Shown: positions 1 to 13,475, numbered from the stretch's first letter. The stretch: 39,465 nucleotides of DNA from Gemmatimonadota bacterium (GCA_030827315.1 JAURER010000024.1:1-39465), one strand, 5' to 3'. The notes: generated from the letters alone by a model not told the origin. Made by a program: numbers and translations.

Positions 1-882
1 GCCCTCGTCGTTATCGACGGCCTGGCGATGGGGGGGCTGCCTGGACCGATCGAGGCGCACGCGCGACGGCTGCGCATCGTCTCGCTCCTCCACCATCCGC
101 TGGCTGACGAGACCGGTCTTTCGGAACCCCGGCGCCAGGCGTTGGTCCAGAGCGAGCGGGCCGCGCTCGCTCCGTGTCGCGGCGTCATCGTCACAAGCGT
201 CTATACTGCGCATCGTCTGCGCGACTATGGGGTGGCGCCGGATCGATGTCGGCCCGTCCCGCCGGGCACCGAGCCGGCCCCGCTGGCCGACGGCCCGCCG
301 GTGGGCTCACCACCCCTCCTGCTCTGCGTCGCCACGGTCACGCCCCGGAAGGGGCAAGACGTGCTCGCCTCGTCACTGGCGCGCGTCCGCGATCTGCCCT
401 GGCGCTGCGTCTGCGCCGGAAGCCTCGAGCGCGATCCGGCCTTCGCGGAGCGCGTGCTTCGATCCGTGCGGGACGAGGGGCTGGAAGATCGTGTCGAGTT
501 CGTCGGCGAGCACGGGCCTGAAGCCCTGCAGCAGCTCTATCACGAGAGCTCACTCTTCGTCCTGGCCTCGCACTACGAGGGATACGGCATGGCTCTGGCC
601 GAAGCCATCGCCCGGGGGCTGCCGGTCGTGAGCACCACCGGAGGAGCCATCCCCTGGACGGTCCCGGAGGACGCGAGCCTGCTCGTTCCGCCCGCCGACG
701 TGGACGCATTCGCGACGGCGCTGCGACTCGTGCTGGCACCCGACGCCGCGCAACGAAGGGAGGCGCTCGCGGCCGCCGCGCGTCGGCACGCCGGCACGCT
801 CCCGGACTGGCCGGCCTCGGTGGCGCTCTTCGAGGAGGCGGTGCGGGCGTTCGCGGGTTCCCCCGGGGCTTTCGAATCATGA
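1..882 (+). CDS. Glycosyltransferase family 4 (GT-B), 5' end outside window
   Basis: The reading frame is open from base 1, so the gene begins upstream of the window. The visible 293 residues are most of a GT-B retaining glycosyltransferase, which transfers a sugar from a nucleotide donor on the cytoplasmic face of the membrane. Seen: an entry segment ALVVIDGLAMGGLP typical of the N-terminal acceptor domain, a basic PRKGQD motif that opens the donor-binding domain, and the EGYGMALAEAIARGLPV segment that gives the family's EX7E pair, followed by an STTGG loop. The donor and acceptor cannot be read from the sequence. Its stop overlaps the next start by ATGA (879-882), so it is co-translated with the methyltransferase and flippase that follow. 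An internal ATG at 28 exists but would cut the fold and is not preferred. Confidence 0.85.
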   Translation, partial: ALVVIDGLAMGGLPGPIEAHARRLRIVSLLHHPLADETGLSEPRRQALVQSERAALAPCRGVIVTSVYTAHRLRDYGVAPDRCRPVPPGTEPAPLADGPPVGSPPLLLCVATVTPRKGQDVLASSLARVRDLPWRCVCAGSLERDPAFAERVLRSVRDEGLEDRVEFVGEHGPEALQQLYHESSLFVLASHYEGYGMALAEAIARGLPVVSTTGGAIPWTVPEDASLLVPPADVDAFATALRLVLAPDAAQRREALAAAARRHAGTLPDWPASVALFEEAVRAFAGSPGAFES

Positions 883-1775
883 GCGACGACGTATTCGACG
901 CAGACTGGCTCACGCTGCGCGAGCCCGCCGATCACCGCGCACGGTCAGCGGAGCTCGATCTCACCCTCGCTGCGTGGTGGGCCGAGGGCGATCGCTCGCG
1001 CATCCTCGACCTGGGATGCGGAACCGGCTCGAACCTTCGCTATCTGTCACCCCTCCTGGGCGGAGCCGCCCCCGCGCGGGTGCAGCGGTGGACACTCCTC
1101 GACCACGACGCCGGGCTTCTCGAGCGGATACGTCTCCCGGGTGCCGGGCCGTTGGGGCTGGGGAGTACCGCCGCGAAGCTCACGCCACTCGATCTCGCGA
1201 CCGTCCAGGGGGATCTCGCCCTCGAAGGCCTCTCCCTCATCGACGGATCACACCTCGTCACCGCGTCCGCGCTTCTCGACCTGGTCTCCTCCGCCTGGAC
1301 CGAGGAGATGGCTCGCCGATGCGCGAACGCGGGTGCCGCGGTCCTGTTCACGCTCACGTACGACGGGTCGATCGTCTGGGACGCGCCCGACCCCGACGAC
1401 GCCCTGGTACGCGACGCGGTCAACGCGCACCAGCGGCGCGAGAAAGGGCTGGGCGGAGCCCTCGGTCCCGTCGCGGCCGGGTACGCCGAGCGCGCCTTCG
1501 CCCTGCACGGCTACCGTACACGAACGGCGAACAGCCCCTGGAGGCTGGGCCCGGCGGAGCATGCGCTCGCTCGGGCGCTGCTCGAGGGCTGGGGCACGGC
1601 GGCCGCCGAGCAGCGCCCGGACCAGGCAGCCCGGATCGAGCGTTGGACGAAGCGCCGGACGGAGACGATCGAGGGCGGCACGTTTTCGCTGACGGTCGGT
1701 CACGTCGACCTCCTGGCGCTTCCGTCCGGGGACGTGCACGAGAACCGCGGGGCCGCGCTCGACACCGAACGATGA
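879..1775 (+). CDS. Class I SAM-dependent methyltransferase
   Basis: A 298-residue Rossmann-fold methyltransferase. The SAM-binding motif I is ILDLGCGTGSNLRYL at about residues 41-55, followed by an acidic TLLDHD end of strand 2 and a catalytic-region motif VTASALLDLVS near residue 130. This matches the trans-aconitate/UbiE type of small-molecule methyltransferase; no rRNA- or protein-specific domain is seen. It sits between a GT4 glycosyltransferase and a flippase with 4-nt overlaps on both sides (ATGA at 879-882 and 1772-1775), so it most likely acts on the same small molecule or glycoconjugate. The substrate is unknown. The start is fixed by the overlap with the upstream stop codon. Confidence 0.85.
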   Translation: MSDDVFDADWLTLREPADHRARSAELDLTLAAWWAEGDRSRILDLGCGTGSNLRYLSPLLGGAAPARVQRWTLLDHDAGLLERIRLPGAGPLGLGSTAAKLTPLDLATVQGDLALEGLSLIDGSHLVTASALLDLVSSAWTEEMARRCANAGAAVLFTLTYDGSIVWDAPDPDDALVRDAVNAHQRREKGLGGALGPVAAGYAERAFALHGYRTRTANSPWRLGPAEHALARALLEGWGTAAAEQRPDQAARIERWTKRRTETIEGGTFSLTVGHVDLLALPSGDVHENRGAALDTER

Positions 1776-2740
1776 AGGTCGTCGCCCGGTTCGTAGTCAG
1801 CGCGGCACTGCTCGCCGCCCTCGCCCTCCTGGTCGACGTATCGGGCGTCGTCGAACGGCTCGGCAGTGCCAGCGCCCCGTGGCTCGCGGTGGGTCTCGCC
1901 ATCTCCGTGCCCCAGGCGCTCCTCCTCGCCTGGCGGTGGCGGTACACGGCGGGTCGCCTCGGTATCGATCTCCCGTTCCGTGTGGCGCTGGCCGAGTACT
2001 ACCTCGGCAACTTCCTGAACCAGGTCCTGCCCGGCGGCGTCACGGGCGACGTCTCGCGTGCGTGGCGGCATGCACGCACCGAGGTGCCCGTGGGAGCGGC
2101 CGTACGGGCGGTGGTCCTCGAGCGGCTTTCCGCCCAGGCCGTGATGACCTCCGTGGCCGCGCTCTCTGTCGCGGCGATCCCCGCCCTCCCCCTCCCCGCA
2201 CGCGTCGGCGCCCCGGCGGCGCTCGTCCTTCTCGGAGTGCTGGCCTCACGCGTGGGTCGCCGCTCCGGCGACGCTCCCTCCGCGGCGGGTCGCTTTCGCG
2301 CCGACACGCGCGTGGCGTTGCTGAGCAGCGACGCCCGGCTCCTCCAGCTTGTGAGCGCGGCGCTCGTGGTGGGCAGCTACCTCGCCGTCTTCGTCGTGGC
2401 CGCGCGCGCGGTGGGGGCGGACGCACCCTCGACGGCGCTCCTCCCCCTCGTCGCCCCGGTGCTCATGACCATGCTCCTGCCCGTAACGGTCGCGGGGTGG
2501 GGCCTGCGCGAAGGAGCGGCCGCCGCGCTGTGGGGCGTGGCCGGCCTAACCCCCGAATCGGGCGTCGCGGTCTCGGTGACCTACGGCCTGATGTCGCTGA
2601 TCTCGACGCTGCCCGGAGCGGCCGTGCTCATCGTGTCCGTGACCCGAAGTCCAGATCGAAGAGGACGTCGTCGCCCAGCTGGAAGTGACGCGTCTGCGGG
2701 CGCAGGGCATCCGAGAGAGACCGGATCGGGGTCAGGGTGA
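1772..2740 (+). CDS. LPG-synthase TM-region family protein (flippase-like, UPF0104)
   Basis: A 322-residue polytopic membrane protein. The first helix starts at residue 3, and further hydrophobic segments cover most of the chain. The central YYLGNFLNQVLPGGVTGDV stretch is the hallmark of the lysylphosphatidylglycerol synthase transmembrane (flippase-like) family, whose members are thought to flip lipid-linked compounds. It has no aminoacyl-transfer domain, so it is not a full MprF. The ATG at 1772 overlaps the stop of the methyltransferase (ATGA). The last roughly 30 residues (after about 2645) are basic and low in complexity and lie antisense to the end of the RibD-like gene; the two genes share 113 bp tail to tail. 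Likely role, by context: moving the product of the neighbouring glycosyltransferase across the inner membrane. Confidence 0.8.
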   Translation: MKVVARFVVSAALLAALALLVDVSGVVERLGSASAPWLAVGLAISVPQALLLAWRWRYTAGRLGIDLPFRVALAEYYLGNFLNQVLPGGVTGDVSRAWRHARTEVPVGAAVRAVVLERLSAQAVMTSVAALSVAAIPALPLPARVGAPAALVLLGVLASRVGRRSGDAPSAAGRFRADTRVALLSSDARLLQLVSAALVVGSYLAVFVVAARAVGADAPSTALLPLVAPVLMTMLLPVTVAGWGLREGAAAALWGVAGLTPESGVAVSVTYGLMSLISTLPGAAVLIVSVTRSPDRRGRRRPAGSDASAGAGHPRETGSGSG

Positions 2741-3497
2741 GTGACGGCTTGCCCGAGCCGATGATCATCGGGGCCACGCAGACGTGCAGCCGGTCCAATA
2801 GTCCGGCTTCCAGGAAGCGCGACACCGTGATGCCTCCGCCCTCCACGAGCACGCGACCGAGTCCCTGCTCGCGAAGCGCGTGGACCAGTTCGCGGAGGTC
2901 GAGGCGTCCGTCTCCGGGCGACGGCACGACGATCTCGTCACCGAAGGAACGCGCGCGGGTGATCTCCGGAGGAGCACGCCGCACGAGCACCGTGCGCGCG
3001 GCCCCGTCCTGGAAGATCCGGCGCTGAGGATCCAGTCGCGCCTCGGGGTCGACGACGACCCGCACCGGATTGCTCCCCTCCACCTCGCGCACCGTCAGCC
3101 GGGGATCGTCTGCCGCCACCGTGCCCGCGCCCACGACGACCGCGTCGACGAGCGCCCGAAGTCGGTGCAGGCGCCGGATGTCCTCAGGCCCCGTCACGTA
3201 GTGCGACGCCCCGGTTTCGGTGGCGATGCGGCCGTCCAGGCTCTGGCCCAGCTGGCCCAGCACGAAGCGCGCCCGCGTGGCGAGCGGCAGGTAGAGTTCG
3301 AAGATGTCCCGCGCCGCGTCGGAGACCGCCCCCGACACGGACCAGGCGCCCGCGGCGTCGACTCGGAGGCGGACCTCCTCCCCGGCATCCTCGGCCGGGG
3401 CGTCCTCCAGATCGACCTCCAGCGGCAGCGTCTCGCCGCTACCGACCCGTGCCGCCACGGTGCGCACGAGCCTCCATGCAGTCCGTTCTTGCATCAT
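2628..3497 (-). CDS. RibD C-terminal-type reductase without deaminase domain
   Basis: A 289-residue protein of the RibD C-terminal (dihydrofolate-reductase-like) family, which uses NADPH to reduce the ribosyl group of aminopyrimidine phosphates to ribityl. Seen: LGQSLDGRIATETGASHYV at about residues 84-102, then HRLRALVDAVVVGAGTV with DDPRLTVR, and near the C-terminus VLVEGGG plus APMIIGSG. There is no zinc deaminase domain; instead about 75 residues of unrecognised sequence precede the reductase. Such a lone reductase is like fungal Rib7 or archaeal ArfC, which reduce before deamination. The ATG at 3497 overlaps the creatininase-family stop by ATGA, which fixes the start. Neighbours are an ArfB-like amidohydrolase and, further away, an OpgH-RibA fusion, so a dedicated aminopyrimidine pathway is likely. 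Confidence 0.85.
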   Translation of the reverse strand: MMQERTAWRLVRTVAARVGSGETLPLEVDLEDAPAEDAGEEVRLRVDAAGAWSVSGAVSDAARDIFELYLPLATRARFVLGQLGQSLDGRIATETGASHYVTGPEDIRRLHRLRALVDAVVVGAGTVAADDPRLTVREVEGSNPVRVVVDPEARLDPQRRIFQDGAARTVLVRRAPPEITRARSFGDEIVVPSPGDGRLDLRELVHALREQGLGRVLVEGGGITVSRFLEAGLLDRLHVCVAPMIIGSGKPSLTLTPIRSLSDALRPQTRHFQLGDDVLFDLDFGSRTR

Positions 3498-4309
3498 CGC
3501 GATACCAGCCGGTCCAGGGGGAAATCCAGGGCGTCCCGCACGACGTCGGCGAGAGCCTCGCCGTAATGACGCACGAGCCGTCGTCCGGCATCGGCGGTCG
3601 CGAGGCGCGCGTCTCCGGTCACCCCGGATGCGCTGAGGTCCTCGGCAAGCCAGGAGAACGACGCCTCACCCTCGGGCCCCAGGCGCCGGAGCGTATGCTC
3701 CAGCTCCTGGCCCAGGGAGCGAAACTCGGCCACCCGCTCGACGCGGACGGCGTCCGGCCGAAGCCAGAGCATCATGGCGGTCTCGACGGCTCCACCGTGG
3801 AGTCCGTGACGCCACTCGGCTTCCGGGAAGTCGACATCGTCGGGTCGGCCCAGGCGGAACCAGCTCGCCTTCACAACGAGCAGACCGTGCCTGCGCCGCA
3901 GCCGCAGTCCCGCCTCCTCCATGGCGAAACGGTTACCTCCGTGGCTGTTCGACAGCACGAGGCGCCGCACACCGACGTCCGCCAGCGACGCGCCGACGCG
4001 CTCGATCGCCTCCACCAGCTCGGCCCCGGACATGCTGCAGGTCTCCGGGAAGCTCATATGCTCCTCGCTCGCCCCGGTCGCGAAGGGCGCCAGCGCCCAC
4101 GCCGGAACCGCGCCGCGGAGCGCCGCGAACGCCTCGGAGAGGATGCCCAGTCCGATGTCGACGTCGGTCGACGGTGGCAGGTGGGGGCCGTGCTGCTCGG
4201 TGGCGGCGAGCGGCAGCACGACCACGGCGTCACGCGCGACGGCCTCGGCGATCTCGGGACCTGTCAGCGCGGACCAGTCAGGAACGTGCGGGGGAAGCCG
4301 GGGCGTCAC
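3494..4309 (-). CDS. Creatininase-family amidohydrolase (ArfB/MftE-like)
   Basis: A 271-residue member of the creatininase family, metal-dependent enzymes that cut cyclic or linear amides and formamides. Family members include creatininase, the archaeal FAPy deformylase ArfB and the mycofactocin peptidase MftE. Seen: ATEQHGPHLPPSTDVDIG at residues 36-53 with likely metal ligands Glu38, His40 and Asp49, the SNSHGGN loop with His123, and Glu176 in HGGAVETAM. All expected ligands are present. The GTG start at 4309 is set by a GTGA overlap with the FkbM stop. Being next to a RibD-type reductase favours an aminopyrimidine or formamide substrate over creatinine, but this is inference; GTP cyclohydrolase II already removes the formyl group itself, so the step it performs is open. 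Confidence 0.85.
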   Translation of the reverse strand: MTPRLPPHVPDWSALTGPEIAEAVARDAVVVLPLAATEQHGPHLPPSTDVDIGLGILSEAFAALRGAVPAWALAPFATGASEEHMSFPETCSMSGAELVEAIERVGASLADVGVRRLVLSNSHGGNRFAMEEAGLRLRRRHGLLVVKASWFRLGRPDDVDFPEAEWRHGLHGGAVETAMMLWLRPDAVRVERVAEFRSLGQELEHTLRRLGPEGEASFSWLAEDLSASGVTGDARLATADAGRRLVRHYGEALADVVRDALDFPLDRLVSR

Positions 4310-5049
4310 GTCTCGTCCACCTTTCGCGCGTACACGTCTCCCGACGACGCGCCCGAAGCGCCCTCGTCGAGCCAGCCGACGACCGCTTCGGACGTCCTCC
4401 ACGGCTCCCACAGGAAGTCGCGCCCTTCGCCGAGCACGACGTTGAACTCGTACCGGGCGAGTTCCGAGAGGCGGCGCACGCACAGCGAGGTGGCCGCGAG
4501 GTCGCCCGCAACGAACTCCACCGAAAGCGCGGGCAGGGATCGGGTGAGCCCGGCCAGAACCTCGGGTTCGTGCCCCTCCACGTCGATCTTGACGAAGGCC
4601 GGAACGCCGTACGTCTCGATGAGTGCGTCGAGCGTGACCACCGGCACCTCCACCGTCTCGTCCCACGTCACCGACCGGAAGCCCGGGTTGGCCTCGGCGA
4701 CCCGCCCGCGCCAGCGGCTGGACAGAGTCGAGACCGTCGGGTTGCGGCGACTGACGGTGAGTCGCGCGGTTCCGCTTTCCTGCCCCACGGCTTCCGCCCG
4801 GACCTCGATGCGTGCATCGCCACGCACGATGCGGCGAAGCCAGCGGACGACGCTCGGCTGCGGCTCCAGAGCCACGACCTTCGCGCCGAGCGCGGAGAAG
4901 GCGACCGCACGGTCGCCGAGGTGGGCGCCCACGTCGAAGACGAGGTCCCCCTCCCGCACCAGGGGCGCGTAGAGGCGCCGGAGCCCGCGCTGCCGTCCTG
5001 GGCGCCAGTAGATCACGAACGAGCGCAGGAGGCCGAGCCAATCAGCCAT
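4306..5049 (-). CDS. FkbM-family methyltransferase
   Basis: A 247-residue SAM-dependent methyltransferase of the FkbM family, which usually O-methylates sugars or polyketide-type hydroxyls. Seen: motif I VFDVGAHLGDRAVAF at about residues 37-51, the acidic VVALEPQPSVVRWL strand-2 motif that binds the SAM ribose, and the family signature VKIDVEGHEPEVLAGL at about residues 152-167. It lies inside the leftward run of four genes: an 8-nt overlap with the upstream sulfatase-like gene and a GTGA overlap with the creatininase-family gene downstream. Together with the class I methyltransferase across the convergent junction, the cluster therefore has two methylation steps. Substrate unknown; a glycan or the ribityl side chain are both possible. 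Confidence 0.85.
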   Translation of the reverse strand: MADWLGLLRSFVIYWRPGRQRGLRRLYAPLVREGDLVFDVGAHLGDRAVAFSALGAKVVALEPQPSVVRWLRRIVRGDARIEVRAEAVGQESGTARLTVSRRNPTVSTLSSRWRGRVAEANPGFRSVTWDETVEVPVVTLDALIETYGVPAFVKIDVEGHEPEVLAGLTRSLPALSVEFVAGDLAATSLCVRRLSELARYEFNVVLGEGRDFLWEPWRTSEAVVGWLDEGASGASSGDVYARKVDET

Positions 5050-6712
5050 CTTCCGCTCCGCTGTAGGCGCGCACGAACCAGTCGCGGAAGTAGTCCATTC
5101 CCAGGGGCGATCCTCCGTCGGAGGGCCACGCGCCCGGAACGAACCCCCATTCGAGAAACGGCTGCAGCACGTTCGGATCGCCGCTGATGACGTGCACCGG
5201 GACCTCCCACGAAGCGCCCTCTCCGGTCACGAGCGGGGCAGGCTGATGATCACCGAGGACGATGAGAAGGGTCCGGTCGTCCACGTAGCGCTCCGCGTAC
5301 GACGTCGCCGCGTGCACCGCGTACTCGACCGACAGGGCATAGTGCTCGCGCACTCGATCGCTGTCGCGCCAGAGCTCGCGCGGGGTCTCCCCTGCGTTAC
5401 CCCAGGGGGCGAAGACCGCGCCGTCGCCGATGGTGTCCCAGTCGTCGAGGACGGGCAGGATGGGCGTCCACGGCGCGTGGCTGCTGATGAGCCCGATCTC
5501 CGCGAAGAGCGGACGCGAGGCATCGAGGGGGCGGATCCTCTCCTGCAGGAACGACCAGGTGAACTGGTCGGGCATGGTGACCCAGTTCAGCGGGGGACCG
5601 GCGTAGTCGATGTCGTCGAAGGCAAAGATCTCCTCGTATCCGAATCGAATCCCTTCCGGCCAGGCCATGCGGATGGCGGGCATAAGGGCGACCGTCCGGT
5701 ATCCCGCGCGCTCGAAGTCGTCGACGAGGGTTTCGCGCCCGGAGCCGAGCATCATGTCGTAGCGGATCTGATTGTCGAGCCAGAGTCCGCTCAGCATCGA
5801 TCCGTGCCCGAACCACGACTGTCCGCCCTGGCTGGGTGCGACCAGGCGACCCGACACCAGGTGCAGTCCGGCAGCCTCCACGCGCCGCTCGAGGTCGTCC
5901 AGCCGGGGTCCGACGACCGGCGCGTACCGTGGATCGTCGATGGCGGAGGCGCCGTAGGACTCAACGAACGCCAGGATTACGTCCCGGCCACCGAGCCCCT
6001 CGAGCAGACCGGGCAGACCCGCGTAGTCCCCGGGGGCGCGCGCGACGTCGGCATCGAAGCGCTCGCGCTCGCCGAGGGCGCGCACGAGGCGGGTCGCCTG
6101 GTCACGCACGAGACGGACCACCGGCACGTCGATCCGCGCGTTCAGGCGCTCGACCCGGTCCAGGCCGAAGCCCACGGTGACGAGCACGACCGCCGCGCCG
6201 ACGCCCGCGCGGGCGAAGGCTCCGCCCACCTCGCCGCGGGTCGGGACGAGCAAGAAGACCACCAGCGCCCCGGCGGCGACCAGAACGGACAGCGCGAGGA
6301 TCTCGGCCAGCACGGCCGGCACGGCGCCGAGTGCGCCCACGAGAAGGTGGTGGACGGAATCGGCCAGCCACACGTCCATGTAAAGGCTGAGGGGTCGCGA
6401 CAGGCTCAGCCAGGTGGCGGTCTCCGCGATCTCGAGTACGAACACGACTGCCACCGTGGCAGCGACGGCGGTGGCGGCGACGAATGTCGCCCGGGACCGG
6501 GGCAGCAGGGCGAAGACGGCGACGAGCAGGCACGCTTCGAGGGCCACCCATGCCGCCCCCTCTCCCCGGAGCAGCACGTAGTCCGGGCCGAGTAGCAGGC
6601 CATTGACAAGCACCAGAGCGGCGAACAGCCTCAACAGCCTGATCCCCTCTCGGTCCCGGTCCGGCCGGTCGACGCTCGCGTCGGCGGTCTGGCCGCCGGC
6701 TGTTCTCTTCAT
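5042..6712 (-). CDS. Membrane sulfatase-fold transferase (LTA synthase/OpgB-like)
   Basis: About 556 residues with a multi-helix N-terminal membrane half (roughly residues 25-200) and a periplasmic alkaline-phosphatase-superfamily domain. Seen: a metal Glu in ILAFVESYG near residue 250, a candidate nucleophilic Ser in GQSWFGHGSML near residue 298, SSHAPW, and the metal pair in LGDHQPAP near residue 487. This plan matches LTA synthase and OpgB phosphoglycerol transferases, which move a phospho-head group from a phospholipid to a glycan. The nearby OpgG and OpgH homologues make a glucan acceptor plausible. The start is uncertain: ATG at 6712 is used here; ATG at 6760 is in frame but would overlap the opgG start on the other strand. 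Sulfatase activity is unlikely, as no Cys/Ser-x-Pro-x-Arg formylglycine motif is visible. Confidence 0.75.
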   Translation of the reverse strand: MKRTAGGQTADASVDRPDRDREGIRLLRLFAALVLVNGLLLGPDYVLLRGEGAAWVALEACLLVAVFALLPRSRATFVAATAVAATVAVVFVLEIAETATWLSLSRPLSLYMDVWLADSVHHLLVGALGAVPAVLAEILALSVLVAAGALVVFLLVPTRGEVGGAFARAGVGAAVVLVTVGFGLDRVERLNARIDVPVVRLVRDQATRLVRALGERERFDADVARAPGDYAGLPGLLEGLGGRDVILAFVESYGASAIDDPRYAPVVGPRLDDLERRVEAAGLHLVSGRLVAPSQGGQSWFGHGSMLSGLWLDNQIRYDMMLGSGRETLVDDFERAGYRTVALMPAIRMAWPEGIRFGYEEIFAFDDIDYAGPPLNWVTMPDQFTWSFLQERIRPLDASRPLFAEIGLISSHAPWTPILPVLDDWDTIGDGAVFAPWGNAGETPRELWRDSDRVREHYALSVEYAVHAATSYAERYVDDRTLLIVLGDHQPAPLVTGEGASWEVPVHVISGDPNVLQPFLEWGFVPGAWPSDGGSPLGMDYFRDWFVRAYSGAEDG

Positions 6713-6740
6713 CTGCCCAGTTCGCGGTTCCCGGAGTCCG

Positions 6741-8384
6741 ATGTCGGGTTCGCTGGTCATTCGCCGCTTCGCGCCGCTCGCGCTCGCCCTGATGTCGGGG
6801 TGCGAGTCCGGATCGGGGCGCGCCCCCACACTACCGACGGATTCGATGGTGGCCAACCCGGCTACCCCCGGATCCCTCTCCTCGTTCGTCGAGGACCGGG
6901 CCCGTGCGCTGGCCGGGCAGCCGTACCGCGCGCCCGCTGCGGGCGCGCTCCCTGAGCTCGCCGACCTCGACTACGACGCCTACCGCTCCATCCGCTTTCG
7001 ACCCGAGGCGGCGCTGTGGAGCGACGCCGGCCTGTTCCGCATCCAGCTCTTCCACCCCGGGTTCATCTTCGACGAGCCGGTGCGGATCCACGTCGTCGAC
7101 GACGAGGTGCGCGAGCTCCCTTTCGATCCCGGGCTGTTCAACTACGAAGGTCCGGCCGCCGCCCTCGCCGACCGACTCGCCGAATCGACCGAATCGTCCA
7201 ATCCGGGCGCGTCGTCACCCGGCTGGTCGGGGTTTCGCGTCCACTTCCCGCTCAACGATTCCGATCGAATGGACGAGGTTGTCGTCTTCCAGGGCGCATC
7301 GTACTTCCGGCTCGTAGGCCCGGGTCAGGTCTACGGCCTGTCCTCGCGGGGACTCGCCGTCGACGTCGCATCCGGCCGCGAGGAGGAATTTCCCGACTTC
7401 CGAGAATTCTGGCTCGTCCGCCCCGCCCCCGACGCGCGGACCCTCGTCTTTCACGCCCTCCTCGATGCCCCGTCGGTGACCGGCGCGTACCGTTTCGAGC
7501 TCGAGCCCGGAACCGACACCGAACTCCGCGTCGACGCGCGCCTGTTCGCGCGGACCGACGTCGGGAAGCTCGGCGTGGCACCCCTGAGCAGCATGTTCCT
7601 CTTCGACGGAACCCTGGCCGACGCCTTCGACGATTTCCGGGCCGGTGTCCACGACTCCGACGGTCTGCTCATGCGCACGCGGCGCGGCGAGTGGATCTGG
7701 AGACCCCTCGGCAATGGGCGCGGCCTGCAGGTGACGTCGCTGCGCGACGTCGATCCTCGGGGGTTCGGGCTCGCGCAGCGGGCCCGTGACTTCCGGGACT
7801 ACCTCGATCTCGAAGCCCGGTACCACGAGCGTCCGAGCGAGTGGGTCGAAGTGCATGAGGACGAGCGCTGGGGCGGGGGCGGTGTCGAGCTGCTGGAGAT
7901 CCCGACCGCGTCGGAGTTCAACGACAACGTCGCCGCGTACTGGGTGCCCGACGAGCCGATGCGGGCGGGCGAGGAACGCCGCTACCGCTACACGCTCGCC
8001 ACCTTCGGAGCCCGCCTCGACGACCAGACGCTCGCGCAGGTCGAGCGGACCCGGGTGGGCCGCAACGCCCTCCCGGGTGAAGTCGACGCCGGTCCCGAGG
8101 CGGCACGCCGCTTCGTCGTCGACTTCCGGGGCGGTCCGCTCGACGGGCTCGCACCCGACGCGCCGGTCCGCGCCGTGGTCGAGACGCTCGCCGGAACGAT
8201 CTCGGACGTGCGTGCCCGTGCACTCCCCGACCCCGGCGGCTGGCGCGCGACCTTCGCGCTCGAGCCCGACGGGGAACGCCCGGCGGACATGCGACTCCGG
8301 ATCGAGCTCGACGGCGCGGACGGGACCTCGACGACGCTGAGCGAGACGTGGACGTACGTGTGGTACCCGGGGCAGCGCCCGTGA
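6741..8384 (+). CDS. opgG: OpgG/OpgD-like periplasmic glucan biosynthesis lipoprotein
   Basis: A 547-residue member of the MdoG/OpgG family, periplasmic proteins needed to make osmoregulated periplasmic glucans with OpgH. The ATG at 6741 has a GGAG box five bases upstream and gives a signal peptide ending in the lipobox MSGC with Cys21, so the protein is predicted to be a lipoprotein, unlike the soluble E. coli OpgG. Seen: the conserved opening Asp/Tyr-rich YDAYRSIRFRPEAALW, the FHPGF segment, FPLN, the GLSSRGLAV loop and the FREFWLVRP motif, followed by an Ig-like C-terminal half with the NDNVAAYWVP motif. Its TGA overlaps the GTG start of the OpgH-RibA fusion (GTGA, 8381-8384). Only 28 bases separate its start from that of the divergent sulfatase-like gene. 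Confidence 0.9.
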   Translation: MSGSLVIRRFAPLALALMSGCESGSGRAPTLPTDSMVANPATPGSLSSFVEDRARALAGQPYRAPAAGALPELADLDYDAYRSIRFRPEAALWSDAGLFRIQLFHPGFIFDEPVRIHVVDDEVRELPFDPGLFNYEGPAAALADRLAESTESSNPGASSPGWSGFRVHFPLNDSDRMDEVVVFQGASYFRLVGPGQVYGLSSRGLAVDVASGREEEFPDFREFWLVRPAPDARTLVFHALLDAPSVTGAYRFELEPGTDTELRVDARLFARTDVGKLGVAPLSSMFLFDGTLADAFDDFRAGVHDSDGLLMRTRRGEWIWRPLGNGRGLQVTSLRDVDPRGFGLAQRARDFRDYLDLEARYHERPSEWVEVHEDERWGGGGVELLEIPTASEFNDNVAAYWVPDEPMRAGEERRYRYTLATFGARLDDQTLAQVERTRVGRNALPGEVDAGPEAARRFVVDFRGGPLDGLAPDAPVRAVVETLAGTISDVRARALPDPGGWRATFALEPDGERPADMRLRIELDGADGTSTTLSETWTYVWYPGQRP

Positions 8385-11380
8385 ACCGCCGCGTCCTGCA
8401 CGCTCCGTTCATCCGGACGCGTCGCTGGCTGTTCGCCGCCCTCGTGCTCGGCACCACGGCCAGCGCGACCTTCGAGATGGCCGGCATCGTGGCCGCGGCC
8501 GGCATCACCGCGCTGGAGATCCTGATCCTCGCGCTCTTCGTCCCGACCTTCGGGTGGATCACGGTCTCCTTCTGGAACGCCATGGTCGGCTTCGTCCTCG
8601 GCCTTCTGCGGCGGGATCCGATCTCCCTCCGAAGGGCAGGTCCCGCGGACGAGGACGCAGGGAAGGCGGCGGGCCCGGCGCCCCTGACCTCGCGCACGGC
8701 TCTGGTCATGCCGGCCCACAACGAAGACCCGGGTCTCGTGCTCGGTGGACTCGCCGCGATCCTGCGTTCACTGGAGGAGAGCGGAGAAGCGCGGCACTTC
8801 GACGTGCACCTGCTGAGCGACACCACGGACGCACGGCTCGCCGCGCTCGAGGAGGCCGCATGGCGCAGGATGCGATCCGCCTCCGAACGCCCGCATCGGC
8901 TCCACTACCGCCGCCGTGCCGACAATGCAGGTCGGAAGGCCGGCAACATCGCGGAGTTCTGCGCGCGGTGCGCGGACGACTACGACTTCATGGTCGTCCT
9001 CGACGCGGACAGCGTCATGAGCGGCGCCACCATCGTCGAACTCGTCCGGACGATGGAGGCGAACCCGGACGCGGGGCTCCTCCAGACGGTCCCGATCCCG
9101 GCCCGGCAGCGCACCCGGTTCGGGCGCTTCATCCAGTTCTCCTCGGCGCTGTACAGTCCCGTGCTCGCCGCAGGCCAGGCATTCTGGCAGGGAGACGCGG
9201 CGAACTACTGGGGGCACAACGCCATCATCCGCCTGCGGCCGTTCGTGGACCACTGCCGCCTTCCCGTGCTCCCGGGCCGGCCGCCCCTCGGCGGGCCGAT
9301 CCTGAGCCACGATTTCGTGGAGGCGGCGCTCCTCCGGCGCGCGGGCTGGCGCGTCTGGCTCCTCCCGGGCCTGGCGGGAAGCTGGGAGGAGGTCCCCGGC
9401 AACATCGTGGACTTCGCGAAACGCGACCGGCGCTGGGCGCAGGGCAGCCTCCAGCATCTGCGCCTGCTGGCAGAGCCCGGACTGCACCCGGTCAGCCGGA
9501 TGCACTTCGCCCTGGGTGCCACGGGCTACCTTTCGTCGGTGCTCTGGCTGATGATCCTGCTCGCGGGCACGGCGTACGTCCTGATCCCCGGGCTCAGCGC
9601 ATCCCCGGTCCTTACGCTCGAGTCGGGCACGGATGCGCGCGCGGTCGCCGATACCGCCCGGACGCTCGGCGACCTCCTCCCGCTCCTCGCCGTGACCGCG
9701 ATCGTTCTCTTCGTGCCCAAGGCCCTCGGCACGCTCCTCGCGGCCACGAGCCGCCCGAGGTCGTTCGGCGGCAGGGTGCGGCTGATCGCGAGTGCGCTCG
9801 TCGAATCGGCGTTCTCCGTGCTGATCGCGCCGGTCATGATGATGTACCACGCGCGATTCGTGGCGGACATACTCCGGGGCCGCGACGTGGCGTGGGGTGC
9901 GCAGGTGCGTGACGGCCGCCGGGTCGGCTGGGGCGAGGCCGTGACCCGGACCGCGGGCATCACGCTCGCCGGAGCCGTTTGGGCCGCCGGCACGCTGGCG
10001 GTCAGTCCGGTCTTCTTCGCGTGGCTCACGCCGATCTTCACCGGACTCCTGCTCGCCGCGCCCATCGTCCGTTGGACCAGCATCGCCGGGGGACCCCATG
10101 GGCTCACACCGGGTATCCTGGCGGTCCCTTCTGAAGTGGACCGTCCCCCGGAACTGGATTCCGGTGGACGCCTGTTCCACGTTGATCCCATCTACCTTGC
10201 GGCGCCGAAAGCCGTCCCTCCCACAAGGCCGGTCGTCGGAATGTACGAAGCAGAACGCGGTCTCTTCGACCTCCAGCGGGGTCGGTCCGTCCTCGTTACA
10301 CCAGCGGTGGGGGCCCTCGGCGCCCGTCCCGTGCTCGTCGCGGCGGTCGAAGGACTCGCATCCGGGACCCTGACGCGCCTGCGCGACCTCGGTCGCGACT
10401 CGGTGCGACTGATCGTGACCCGGTACAGGGCGAACGCCATGGGCATCCTGCCCGAGGGCGAGCCGAGCGTGAACGCAGCCGTGAGTATCCGGATCGACGA
10501 CGCCACCCCGGACGAGATTCTGCGGCTGGCGAGCGCGTCGGGCGGCTTCGATCTCGCCGCGAGCGACGTCCGGGCCGCACGCGCGGAGGAAGTCGCGGGA
10601 CTCGCCCTGACCCGGTTGGCGCGCCTTCTGCCGGCGGTCCTCGCCGTCGAGACCGACCGGGACAGTTCACCCGAACTCGCCGAGGCTCTCGACAGCGGAG
10701 CCATCCTGACCGCGAACGCAGACGCGATCGCCGCTCTCGCCGGCGACGACACGCGCGTCCAGGTCACGTACGTGAGCGACGCGCCCGTCCCCCTAGCGGA
10801 GGCCGAAGACGTTCGCTTCATGCTCTTCCGCGAGGCGAACGGGCTCACCGAGCACGTCGCCATCCTCATCGGAGAGGTCCAGAACTGGCCGGATCCCGTG
10901 CCGGTCCGGCTGCACTCCGCCTGCCTCACGGGCGACCTCTTCGGAAGCCTCCGCTGCGACTGCGGCGAACAGCTGCGGCGGAGTCTCCAGATCTTTTCCA
11001 ACTCAGGCGGCGGGGTGCTGCTCTACCTCGAGCAGGAGGGCCGCGGCATCGGACTCGGCAACAAGCTGCGGGCCTACACACTGCAGCAGGAGGGTCTCGA
11101 CACTGTGGACGCCGACTGCGTGCTCGGCTTCGGTGCCGACGAACGTCGCTACCACGCGGCCGTCGGGATCCTCCGCCACCTCGGCGTCGCCCGCGTACGC
11201 CTGCTGACGAACAACCCCGAGAAGCTCCAGGCGCTCGAGAACGCCGGCATCGAAGTCGTCGACCGGACTCCCCTTCACGGTACGCTCAACCGCCACAACC
11301 TCCCGTACGTGCGGGCCAAGGTGCAGCGCGCCGGCCACTGGCTCGGGGACATGCTGCACGGTCGCGCCTCGCACGACTGA
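8381..11380 (+). CDS. opgH-ribA: OpgH glucan glucosyltransferase fused to GTP cyclohydrolase II (RibA)
   Basis: One open frame of 999 residues. Residues 1 to about 590 are an OpgH/MdoH membrane glucosyltransferase (GT2): MPAHNED at 110, DAD at 208-210, LSHDF with Asp311, and RDRRW at 348-352, with hydrophobic segments at both ends. Residues about 615-835 resemble the degenerate RibB-like front half of some bacterial RibA proteins. Residues about 836-999 are GTP cyclohydrolase II: the zinc cysteines 848, 859 and 861 in CLTGDLFGSLRCDC, then EQEGRGIGLGNKLRAY and LLTNNPEKL. All catalytic residues I can check are kept in both halves. GTG at 8381 overlaps the opgG stop and is preferred to ATG 8348. 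An ATG at 10241 could also start a free 379-residue RibA, which equals the length of stand-alone forms. GCHII turns GTP into formate, pyrophosphate and a diaminopyrimidine phosphate. Confidence 0.9.
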   Translation: MNRRVLHAPFIRTRRWLFAALVLGTTASATFEMAGIVAAAGITALEILILALFVPTFGWITVSFWNAMVGFVLGLLRRDPISLRRAGPADEDAGKAAGPAPLTSRTALVMPAHNEDPGLVLGGLAAILRSLEESGEARHFDVHLLSDTTDARLAALEEAAWRRMRSASERPHRLHYRRRADNAGRKAGNIAEFCARCADDYDFMVVLDADSVMSGATIVELVRTMEANPDAGLLQTVPIPARQRTRFGRFIQFSSALYSPVLAAGQAFWQGDAANYWGHNAIIRLRPFVDHCRLPVLPGRPPLGGPILSHDFVEAALLRRAGWRVWLLPGLAGSWEEVPGNIVDFAKRDRRWAQGSLQHLRLLAEPGLHPVSRMHFALGATGYLSSVLWLMILLAGTAYVLIPGLSASPVLTLESGTDARAVADTARTLGDLLPLLAVTAIVLFVPKALGTLLAATSRPRSFGGRVRLIASALVESAFSVLIAPVMMMYHARFVADILRGRDVAWGAQVRDGRRVGWGEAVTRTAGITLAGAVWAAGTLAVSPVFFAWLTPIFTGLLLAAPIVRWTSIAGGPHGLTPGILAVPSEVDRPPELDSGGRLFHVDPIYLAAPKAVPPTRPVVGMYEAERGLFDLQRGRSVLVTPAVGALGARPVLVAAVEGLASGTLTRLRDLGRDSVRLIVTRYRANAMGILPEGEPSVNAAVSIRIDDATPDEILRLASASGGFDLAASDVRAARAEEVAGLALTRLARLLPAVLAVETDRDSSPELAEALDSGAILTANADAIAALAGDDTRVQVTYVSDAPVPLAEAEDVRFMLFREANGLTEHVAILIGEVQNWPDPVPVRLHSACLTGDLFGSLRCDCGEQLRRSLQIFSNSGGGVLLYLEQEGRGIGLGNKLRAYTLQQEGLDTVDADCVLGFGADERRYHAAVGILRHLGVARVRLLTNNPEKLQALENAGIEVVDRTPLHGTLNRHNLPYVRAKVQRAGHWLGDMLHGRASHD

Positions 11381-11417: not shown

Positions 11418-12536
11418 TCAGCGCCCTTCGGCGCCCAAGAGCTCCAGCAGGACCTGGCCGACCTGGTCGTTGCGGATGATTCCCCCGAACCTTTCGGCTC
11501 CCGGTCCCGAAGCGAAGATCGGGATCAGCACCCCCGTGTGCCCCGGCGTGGCCCACGCCGCGAACGCCGCCCGTTCGAGGCCCGCGCCGTAGGGGAGGGA
11601 CAGCCCACCCGTTTCGTGGTCGCCGGTGACCAGCACGAGCGTTCCCGGGTGCTCGGCCTGGTAGTCGAGCGCCAGTCGCACGACTTCGTCGAAGTCGAGC
11701 ATCTCGGTGGTGATCGTCTCCGAACCCATGTTGTCGTGCGACTGCGTGTCCGACTCCTCGTTCTCCACCATCAGGAAGAAGCCATCCGGGTCGCGATCGA
11801 GGATGTCGAGGGCGGTCTCGGTCATCTTGCGCAACGTACCCGCTCCACGATCGGCCACGACGCCCATCTCCGTCTCCGCCAGTAGTCCGAGCAGCATGTC
11901 CACCGTATCGGGACGAAGATCCATCAACTCTTCGACCGTCTCGACGTACGTGTACCTGCCGCGCGCTTCTGCGATGAGGTCGTTGCCACCCTGCATGTCC
12001 GGCCGGAAGAAGCGCCGCCCGCCGCCCACGAGTACCGTGATCCCCCGGTCGATGAACTGACGGGAGATGTCGGCAAGCCGGGTCCGGGAGACCGCGTGCG
12101 CGCCGAACGCCGCCGGAGTCGCGTCCTGGATCGCGGTCGTCGTCATGAGACCGGTGCTCTTGCCCCGCTCCATGGCGAGCTCGAGCACGGTCTTCACCGG
12201 CACGCTGTCCGGACCCACCGAGATCGCGCCCATGAACGTCCGTACGCCGGTCGCGTAGGCGGACGCGGTCGGCGCACTGCCCGACACCACGTGATCGGAC
12301 CCCCGGGTGTCCACCAGCCCGACGGTCTTCATGCGCTCGAGGGCGAGGTCCTCCGTGGCGAAGCGCGCGAGTGTCCAGTGCGCTGCGCCCGCCCCGTCGG
12401 CGATGAGGAAGATCACGCTCGTCGGGCGATCCTGCACGCCGATACCCCGTTGCCCCCCAACGCACGCCCCCAGAAGGAGCGAGAGCCCGAGTGCGATGGC
12501 GTGGGCGGGACGGGCGGAGCGAGTCGGCTGGATCAC
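11418..12536 (-). CDS. Alkaline phosphatase family lipoprotein
   Basis: A 372-residue PhoA-type phosphomonoesterase, predicted to act in the periplasm on an outer- or inner-membrane lipid anchor: the chain opens with a signal peptide and lipobox LLGAC (Cys25). Seen: metal motif IFLIADGAG, nucleophile region SGSAPTASAYATG with Ser87, ENEESDTQSHDNM, VTGDHETGGL and TPGHTGVL, in the family order. The usual Asp before the nucleophilic Ser is Gly here. The GTG at 12536 is chosen because a GGGGA box lies about four bases upstream and the signal peptide then has a normal length; GTG at 12566 is an alternative. The gene stands alone, convergent with the opgH-ribA end (37-bp gap). Its role is likely phosphate scavenging, although a role in trimming the neighbouring cluster's phosphorylated product cannot be excluded. 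Confidence 0.88.
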   Translation of the reverse strand: MIQPTRSARPAHAIALGLSLLLGACVGGQRGIGVQDRPTSVIFLIADGAGAAHWTLARFATEDLALERMKTVGLVDTRGSDHVVSGSAPTASAYATGVRTFMGAISVGPDSVPVKTVLELAMERGKSTGLMTTTAIQDATPAAFGAHAVSRTRLADISRQFIDRGITVLVGGGRRFFRPDMQGGNDLIAEARGRYTYVETVEELMDLRPDTVDMLLGLLAETEMGVVADRGAGTLRKMTETALDILDRDPDGFFLMVENEESDTQSHDNMGSETITTEMLDFDEVVRLALDYQAEHPGTLVLVTGDHETGGLSLPYGAGLERAAFAAWATPGHTGVLIPIFASGPGAERFGGIIRNDQVGQVLLELLGAEGR

Positions 12537-12629
12537 CGGATCCCCACGGAAGGCTGGTCGAGTCACGGACGATGCACGAAATATGGTGTGTCTGAGTCGC
12601 GCCGCGGCACATTCCATCGTCACCGCTCC

Positions 12630-13475
12630 ATGACCATCAATCTCGGAAGCACCCTCGCGTCGGCTCGCGAGCCGACGCAGCTGGTGATGCTGCTCGCCGT
12701 CCTCGGAGCGTGCGCCGGAGCGCCCGCGGCTCCCTCCCCCTCGCACGGTGCCCCGACGCCCGCCGCGATCCCGTCCCCCGTCGAGCGGCTTCTCGAGGCC
12801 TCGGACGTGGCGAGCGTGGTCGACCAGCGCGCCCGCGTCTTCACCCGGCAGGTGGCCGTGCTCGTCGCGGACCTGTCCGACGACGAGCTCGGGCGTCTCG
12901 TTCCAGCGGTCCAGGCCGGCTTCGCACCGGAACTGCTCCGCCGGGACGTCGCCGCGTTCATCGAGGCGGAGGCCCCCGAGGGCAGGATCGCGGAGGTGCT
13001 CACCTGGCTCGAGGGTGGAGCGAACGCCGAGGCGCGCCGGATCGTTTCCGCGTACGACCCGCCTCTCTCGCTGCAGGACTGGCTCACCGAATACACCGAC
13101 GCTCCCCCCGCGGAGGAGCGCGTTCGTCTCGTGGCAGGCTGGACCGAGGCGGGAGGGGCGGGCGACTTCTTCGTCCTCTTGGACGAGGCCCTCGCCGAAG
13201 CGGCCTTTGCGGTCCAGGGCGTCCTGCGCCCGGGCTCACCTGCCTTCGCCCCGTCACGGGGTTCCGAGCTGCGCGGACGCCTGGAACGGAGCTTCAGCGC
13301 GTCGGTGCTCACCACGCTGCACGAGAGCGAGACCGTTCCAGACGGCGTGGTGCGGGCGGCGATCGCCGAGCTCGAGAGCGAAGCCGGGCGCTGGTACGTG
13401 CTGACGTGGCAGCTCGCGGTCGCGGAGGCGGTCCGCTCGGCCGGCCTGCGGGTCGTCGCGGCGCTCGAGGGCTGA
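12630..13475 (+). CDS. Predicted lipoprotein of unknown function
   Basis: A 281-residue protein with an N-terminal signal and lipobox VLGAC (Cys28), followed by a Pro/Ala-rich linker of about 20 residues and an all-helical, acidic domain. The segments LSDDELGRLVPAVQAGF and ELLRRDVAAFI, and then a second, similar LESEAGRWYVLTWQLAVAEA near the C-terminus, recall the helical DUF2059-type repeats, but the match is weak and I do not assign it. It is divergent from the alkaline phosphatase gene (93 bp between the two chosen starts). No catalytic motif or cysteine pair is visible. It ends 36 bases before the 3' end of nadB, which is convergent. Confidence 0.75.
   Translation: MTINLGSTLASAREPTQLVMLLAVLGACAGAPAAPSPSHGAPTPAAIPSPVERLLEASDVASVVDQRARVFTRQVAVLVADLSDDELGRLVPAVQAGFAPELLRRDVAAFIEAEAPEGRIAEVLTWLEGGANAEARRIVSAYDPPLSLQDWLTEYTDAPPAEERVRLVAGWTEAGGAGDFFVLLDEALAEAAFAVQGVLRPGSPAFAPSRGSELRGRLERSFSASVLTTLHESETVPDGVVRAAIAELESEAGRWYVLTWQLAVAEAVRSAGLRVVAALEG

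Follow-up and report, generated by a model that had tools for sequence, protein, structure and literature searches.

A conserved gene cluster with a GTP cyclohydrolase II fused to a glucan synthase: a candidate pathway to a GTP-derived, membrane-linked compound

We analysed a 39,465-nucleotide stretch of DNA from a Gemmatimonadota bacterium (GCA_030827315.1, JAURER010000024.1:1-39465), which makes up all of contig C22 in a 3.07 Mb, 98% complete genome assembly and is called the window below. A 16S gene was looked for in this assembly and not found. Positions 1 to 11,380 hold most of a cluster of 8 to 14 genes that is kept side by side in many unrelated bacteria. The cluster brings together a GTP cyclohydrolase II (GCHII), a RibD-type reductase and a creatininase-family enzyme with glycosyltransferase, methyltransferase and membrane protein genes. 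We put at roughly one half the probability that the product of this dedicated locus is a GTP-derived compound, glycosylated and linked to the membrane, which in the lineage of the host bacterium is placed on periplasmic glucan. A preliminary description, made from the sequence alone, had proposed a GTP-derived pyrimidine- or flavin-like compound coupled to glycan assembly.

Conservation and setting of the gene cluster

The same families were found together in many genomes, far beyond chance. Besides some 20 relatives of the host, gene-neighbourhood analysis detected the linkage in Alphaproteobacteria, Gammaproteobacteria and Actinomycetota. The set that the preliminary description had named for other bacteria was correct: a homologue of 6-pyruvoyl-tetrahydropterin synthase (PTPS), a 'zinc' alcohol dehydrogenase (ADH), a family 4 glycosyltransferase (GT4), a methyltransferase (MT), a flippase, RibD, RibA and creatininase. 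A fragmentary or chance cluster is ruled out by linkage kept across genomes. A search with the window methyltransferase returned 15 plasmid records, from rhizobia, Methylosinus, Palleronia, a Rhodobacteraceae strain, the gammaproteobacterium Thiodictyon, Microbacterium and Streptomyces; the alphaproteobacterial data come from these plasmids only. All plasmid regions read contained the ADH, PTPS and MT genes together, most with GT4 and in variable orientation. RibD adjoined this core in nearly all of them, the exceptions being Neorhizobium and S. fungicidicus.

When genomes were scanned for the PTPS homologue, at least 581 related candidate stretches were recovered. The best 80 were kept, and all of these were actinobacterial since the query list began with a Streptomyces sequence. 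Exactly the arrangement CDP-alcohol phosphatidyltransferase (CDPOH) / ADH-PTPS-GT4-MT-flippase / creatininase / GCHII was present in 54 of the 80, and about 12 more had a RibD-type gene as well. The linkage was observed in about 75 actinobacterial genomes with rearranged orders, and relatives of the host kept the full gene order. CDPOH was detected in 79 and the flippase in 72 of the 86 scanned loci, and both genes turned up again, differently ordered, in rhizobia and Microbacterium. Sampling of the host phylum revealed the cluster in 24 of 297 genomes, every one belonging to the same family as the host (12 of 119 genera); in the Streptomyces phylum 14 of 296 sampled genomes matched, four of them weakly. 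Pairwise identities of nine cluster families correlated at 0.59-0.87, which fits descent as a unit, short of proof.

The cluster continues on contig C67. In reverse orientation this contig overlaps the first 214 window bases with 213 of 214 positions identical, and the joined GT4 gene is a complete open reading frame (ORF) of 369 amino acids. The PTPS homologue and 'zinc' dehydrogenase that had been predicted upstream of base 1 were both located on C67, together with a divergent CDPOH. A search of the host genome for PTPS revealed two copies, a normal one beside a folE-like gene (contig C5) and the other at the end of C67. Over its full length, the latter is orthologous to S. coelicolor SCO6650 (PDB 3d7j; 1.6e-52).

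The host has an independent riboflavin operon. Contig C62 carries ribD with its deaminase, ribE, ribBA and ribH, and neither the window nor the cluster loci read showed the deaminase, RibB, RibH or RibE. The suggestion that the window holds no ordinary riboflavin operon was therefore borne out, and the possibility that its genes fill a gap in the host's own operon was checked and answered by the complete set on C62. Since this operon lies elsewhere in the genome, the window has dedicated copies of GCHII and RibD.

The link to glucan synthesis was examined in the OpgG and OpgH genes. OpgH and GCHII are fused in five genomes (the window, L150, L152, L064 and L053) and are unfused but adjacent in L066. 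An assembly artefact as the source of the fused ORF was rejected, as four other genomes have the fusion, one of them within a single 4.1 Mb contig. OpgG was found in 22 of 98 relatives, and 21 of these 22 also had the cluster methyltransferase (Fisher p 2e-16, not corrected for relatedness). OpgH adjoins the core in Methylosinus (plasmid pOB3b1 of M. trichosporium OB3b) and Neorhizobium as well. Based on the fusion, the co-occurrence of OpgG and this placement of OpgH, the glucan synthase very probably belongs to the system in these lineages. The proposed coupling to glycan assembly thus gains support, while the product stays a matter of prediction.

The enzyme families listed in the preliminary description were all present in the window, as judged by Pfam and other profile matches and by fold comparison (Table 1). 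The genes form three runs. GT4, methyltransferase and flippase point forward, the run from RibD reductase through creatininase and FkbM to the membrane transferase converges on them, and OpgG and OpgH/GCHII again point forward. The overlaps described at the junctions are real and measure 4-8 bases within runs: ATGA at GT4/methyltransferase and methyltransferase/flippase, GTGA at OpgG/OpgH, 4 bp at RibD/creatininase and creatininase/FkbM, and 8 bp at FkbM and the LtaS-like gene. OpgG, OpgH and GCHII were assigned to the right families, but GCHII is not a separate gene. It shares one ORF of 1010 amino acids with OpgH, in which OpgH covers about 8381-10230 and GCHII with an N-terminal domain about 10250-11380 (Pfam match of GCHII at 10778-11272). 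An alkaline-phosphatase-like gene directly after this ORF (11418-12746, minus strand) was considered as a member of the system and rejected, as it had no homologue at other loci.

Table 1. Cluster genes in positions 1 to 11,380 of the window
Feature	Position	Strand	Evidence and remarks
GT4 glycosyltransferase, 3' part	1..882	+	Pfam Glyco_trans_1_4, 95.8 bits; 5' part on contig C67
Cluster-specific class I S-adenosylmethionine-dependent methyltransferase	879..1775	+	without Pfam match; putative SCO6652 orthologue by gene order
LPG_synthase_TM flippase-like membrane protein	1772..2740	+	PF03706, 125.7 bits; TIGR00374, 46 bits
RibD-type pyrimidine reductase domain, without deaminase	2628..3497	-	PF01872, 157 bits
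Creatininase-family amidohydrolase, NGHGGN-type, probable formamidase	3494..4309	-	PF02633, 197.5 bits
FkbM family methyltransferase	4306..5049	-	TIGR01444, 93 bits; Methyltransf_21, 51.7 bits
Putative alkaline-phosphatase-superfamily membrane transferase (LtaS/OpgB/EptA-like)	5042..6712	-	conserved motifs; start codon uncertain
OpgG/MdoG periplasmic glucan protein	6741..8384	+	PF04349 (MdoG), 567.7 bits; start set by lipoprotein-like signal
OpgH (MdoH glucosyltransferase) fused in frame to GCHII	8381..11380	+	NF003958 (MdoH), 729.9 bits (cut-off 419); PF00925, 189 bits; PRK08815, 326 bits

Some neighbouring genes were also recorded. A small cytochrome b561 gene recurs in the clusters of rhizobia, Thiodictyon and several host relatives (L036, L039, L041, L042, L046, L047, L048, L052, L059, L062); neither the window nor the Streptomyces clusters contain it. 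Further recurrent neighbour families were not found beyond close relatives, apart from a major facilitator superfamily transporter beside five actinobacterial loci from Pseudonocardia, Actinomadura and Actinacidiphila (L127, L128, where the gene was read, L139, L141 and L142). In three host relatives (L009, L016, L023) the methyltransferase match contained one in-frame TGA, which may stem from a frameshift, an error of assembly or a gene that ends within the match.

Catalytic residues and predicted enzyme chemistry

The PTPS homologue has the T-fold in common with PtpS and QueD, and the Glu of pterin recognition was retained in 13 of 13 aligned cluster sequences. In contrast to those enzymes, all 13 lacked the catalytic Cys and had HGA in place of HGH, and the Asp-His pair of the triad was replaced, by NY in most of them. 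Neither the zinc motif HxnHxH nor the Cys-Asp-His triad of PTPS/QueD enzymes was found in this alignment. As the Glu is kept while the Cys, HGH and triad are altered, we expect the protein to bind a ring resembling a pterin or a pyrimidine and to perform a reaction other than that of PTPS. Spoonamore and Bandarian reportedly observed a structure of SCO6650 without zinc or catalytic triad, and the GCHII homologue SCO6655 is said by them to yield the formylamino pyrimidine. The 'zinc' dehydrogenase is altered in a similar manner: its catalytic zinc ligands (Cys, GHE) were absent from all 13 sequences aligned, with SRGTE (SKGTE) and KYGY instead, and its nearest named model was BchC, under the cut-off.

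A sister type of cluster, RibD-ADH-PTPS-GT4, was seen at all three loci that were examined out of the four weak Streptomyces-phylum matches. Its PTPS keeps the HGH zinc motif without the Cys (L170 6221-6600, L171 6595-6990, L172 5997-6368), and this branch may be an evolutionary intermediate. In two of the three the following gene was read and encodes a methyltransferase from a different family; in L171 (7016-8941) GT4 and this methyltransferase are fused into one protein of 641 amino acids. No matches to CDPOH or the flippase were found at L170 and L171.

The window GCHII retains the zinc Cys residues and NKLRAY, including the active-site Tyr (Tyr105 position), and the Tyr is likewise retained in proteobacterial clusters. 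The same position is Met in 64 Streptomyces-type loci and His in four Pseudonocardia/Actinomadura loci. The Met form of S. coelicolor (SCO6655) reportedly stops at the formylamino pyrimidine; the window GCHII does not carry this Tyr replacement. Clustered GCHII of the Met or His type was accompanied by a creatininase gene in actinobacteria. In Sinorhizobium the creatininase-family formamidase BrbF carries out the remaining deformylation (PMC9478397). The motif leading to the first zinc Cys is HSEC in E. coli GCHII; the window and its relatives have HSAC there, and rhizobia have HSSC.

For the amidohydrolase, called ArfB-like in the preliminary description, the assignment to the creatininase family stood, but the ArfB model gave it only 19 of 180 bits. 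Its motifs are EQHG, D, SHGGN and HGGxxET. The second-metal Glu of the creatininase NGHYEN motif was not present, SHGGN standing there, and the creatininase equivalog gave 85 of 235 bits. The sequence class is compatible with deformylation of the formylamino pyrimidine, as by formamidases of the ArfB/BrbF kind. The RibD domain keeps the DDPRLTVR and EGG motifs of ribosylaminopyrimidine reductases, and its closest solved relative is 6p8c, annotated as a DARP reductase.

Among the genes for membrane and transfer functions, CDPOH had its motif DxxDGxxARx8GxxxDxxxD intact in 20 of 20 aligned sequences, the C67 copy included. The methyltransferase at 879-1775 was modelled with a predicted local distance difference test score (pLDDT) of 87. 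Its fold is generic, and Foldseek matched many class I small-molecule methyltransferases that point to no particular substrate. From the window to Pseudonocardia, the LtaS-like protein keeps ESYG, GGxSW, SHxPW and GDHQP, apart from minor deviations in individual sequences. It had no Pfam match itself, and a relative passed PF00884 (Sulfatase) with 33.9 bits against a cut-off of 25 bits. Its low-confidence model (pLDDT 57) gave weak Foldseek matches to LtaP, MCR and EptC/phosphoethanolamine transferases.

Proposed pathway and competing explanations

We infer the individual reactions, their order after the third step and the product as follows. The GCHII domain would open GTP to a formylamino- or diamino-ribosylaminopyrimidine phosphate, and the creatininase-family enzyme would take off formate where GCHII leaves it. 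The RibD-type reductase would then convert the ribosyl group to a ribityl polyol phosphate. The zinc-less dehydrogenase and the altered PTPS homologue from C67 may oxidise and rearrange this to a pyrimidine- or pterin-like head group, which the methyltransferase and GT4 would decorate. CDPOH is predicted to join the head group to a phosphatidyl moiety, and the flippase to move the product outward. Finally, in the host the LtaS/OpgB-like enzyme could transfer the head group to the glucan made by OpgG/OpgH in the manner of OpgB, with FkbM methylating a sugar. Taken further, and only tentatively, such a product would represent an undescribed class of envelope glycoconjugate with a GTP-derived polyol head group on a glycosylated phospholipid, which in some Gram-negatives undergoes OpgB-like transfer to periplasmic glucan, the cyclohydrolase being fused to the glucan synthase.

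Several observations weigh against this pathway as drawn. The reductase step is not universal, because most Streptomyces clusters are without RibD. Some alphaproteobacterial cores, those of Rhodobacteraceae SC52 and Palleronia, have no CDPOH, flippase, LtaS-like or Opg genes close by, and actinobacteria are without OpgGH; the lipid and glucan steps may thus have been added in particular lineages. The window GCHII with its Tyr may deformylate unaided, which leaves the creatininase step unexplained, and it has HSAC where E. coli has HSEC. In addition, the model of the LtaS-like protein is of low confidence, and the co-occurrence statistics ignore shared ancestry.

Because the smallest clusters have no lipid genes nearby, a soluble product is a serious rival. 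The locus would then make a secreted specialised metabolite, a methylated and glycosylated pyrimidine or pterin produced by GCHII, creatininase, RibD, dehydrogenase, PTPS homologue, methyltransferase and GT4, and CDPOH, flippase, LtaS-like and Opg genes would serve envelope remodelling or export and merely be co-regulated. The cores of Rhodobacteraceae SC52 and Palleronia, the smallest ones, have neither CDPOH nor flippase within 10 kb, and the sister loci L170 and L171 combine RibD-ADH-PTPS-GT4-MT without them. Expression in S. coelicolor also resembles that of secondary-metabolite genes. For the most part, the genes grouped with SCO6655 increase in expression in stationary phase once phosphate is depleted (PMC2853524), and in sporulating cultures SCO6652 goes up about 16- to 20-fold in the mycelium at the late stage (48-72 h; PMC3610822). 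SCO6652 is taken here as the probable cluster methyltransferase because the gene order is invariant between SCO6650 (3d7j) and SCO6655. The high frequency of CDPOH and flippase among the scanned loci, recurring in rearranged order, and the fusion that links the first enzyme to the glucan synthase argue against a soluble product, and we regard it as rather unlikely. The retained Glu of the PTPS homologue, and the b561 gene in rhizobial, Thiodictyon and many relatives' clusters, would suit an alternative tetrahydropterin-like redox or one-carbon cofactor, with the RibD-type enzyme as a dihydropterin reductase, the PTPS homologue acting on a pterin and b561 exchanging electrons. Such a cofactor is improbable, as the RibD domain scores as a ribosylaminopyrimidine reductase with the phosphoribose motif kept, GCHII yields pyrimidines, not pterins, and window and Streptomyces clusters have no b561.

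It might also be asked whether the envelope and GTP-derived parts belong together at all. OpgGH is missing in most cluster-bearing alphaproteobacteria and in every actinobacterium read, as expected if a metabolite cluster and an operon for osmoregulated periplasmic glucans were independent systems that became neighbours by chance. The fusion in five genomes, the separate occurrence of OpgH beside the core in Methylosinus and Neorhizobium, and the near confinement of OpgG to cluster-bearing relatives make this quite improbable. A second supply of riboflavin beside unrelated envelope genes, such as the secreted flavins proposed for RibBA in Sinorhizobium, appears highly improbable. GCHII, RibD and the creatininase-family enzyme are indeed of the riboflavin type, and BrbF makes a riboflavin precursor in Sinorhizobium (PMC9478397). 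Nevertheless, the same genome has the complete rib operon, the cluster loci read lack the remaining riboflavin genes, and riboflavin synthesis has no use for the dehydrogenase, PTPS and methyltransferase that accompany them. Expression of SCO6655 runs against the predicted riboflavin flux, with r -0.61 (PMC2853524). The GTP-derived, membrane-linked compound is the reading that we prefer.

Relation to known systems and meaning of the cluster

The closest known counterpart is SCO6650-SCO6655 of S. coelicolor, where the Streptomyces order ADH-PTPS-GT4-MT-flippase-creatininase-GCHII fits the SCO numbering. Window and C67 together carry the same assembly, in which ADH, GT4, MT, flippase, creatininase and GCHII accompany a PTPS homologue lacking the Cys and the third zinc His. 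The Streptomyces version differs in having no OpgGH or FkbM and mostly neither RibD nor the LtaS-like gene; its GCHII has Met for Tyr, whereas that of the window, fused to OpgH, retains the Tyr. With riboflavin biosynthesis (RibA, RibD) the cluster has GCHII and the RibD reductase domain in common, but not the deaminase, RibB, RibH or RibE. The split routes of archaeal ArfA/ArfB and rhizobial BrbF likewise place a creatininase-superfamily enzyme beside a cyclohydrolase, matching a separate removal of formate. Unlike these, the cluster has no GCHIII, is not linked to riboflavin genes and, as noted, scores low against the ArfB model.

OpgG, OpgH and a putative alkaline-phosphatase-superfamily membrane transferase are shared with OpgB-type glucan substitution. 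In contrast to known synthesis of osmoregulated periplasmic glucans, OpgH is here fused to GCHII and placed with the genes for the GTP-derived head group. Assembly of phosphatidylinositol mannosides, with a phosphatidylinositol phosphate (PIP) synthase and the GT4 PimA, resembles the cluster in having CDPOH and GT4 at one locus. This serves as a working analogy only: the locus has no inositol phosphate synthase, and CDPOH gave no significant match to PIP synthase structures.

Biosynthesis initiated by a GTP cyclohydrolase is already known as a reaction type. No description of the cluster, the whole pathway or the product was found in the literature searched, a search that largely did not reach subscription papers. 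We know of no product for the cluster, the Streptomyces version included, of which two homologues have been studied singly. The marker protein occurs in at least 581 candidate stretches of public genomes, from Alphaproteobacteria, Gammaproteobacteria, Actinomycetota and the host lineage, and carriers include laboratory strains such as coelicolor-type Streptomyces and Methylosinus trichosporium OB3b. A pathway so widespread and without a product is a clear gap, and the gene set is directly accessible to testing by single knock-outs. The pathway would account for the orphan proteins SCO6650 and SCO6655 and would correct annotations as riboflavin RibA and RibD, '6-carboxytetrahydropterin synthase', 'zinc alcohol dehydrogenase' and 'creatininase'. 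It could also lead to a novel compound of the cell surface that is redox-active or absorbs UV light.

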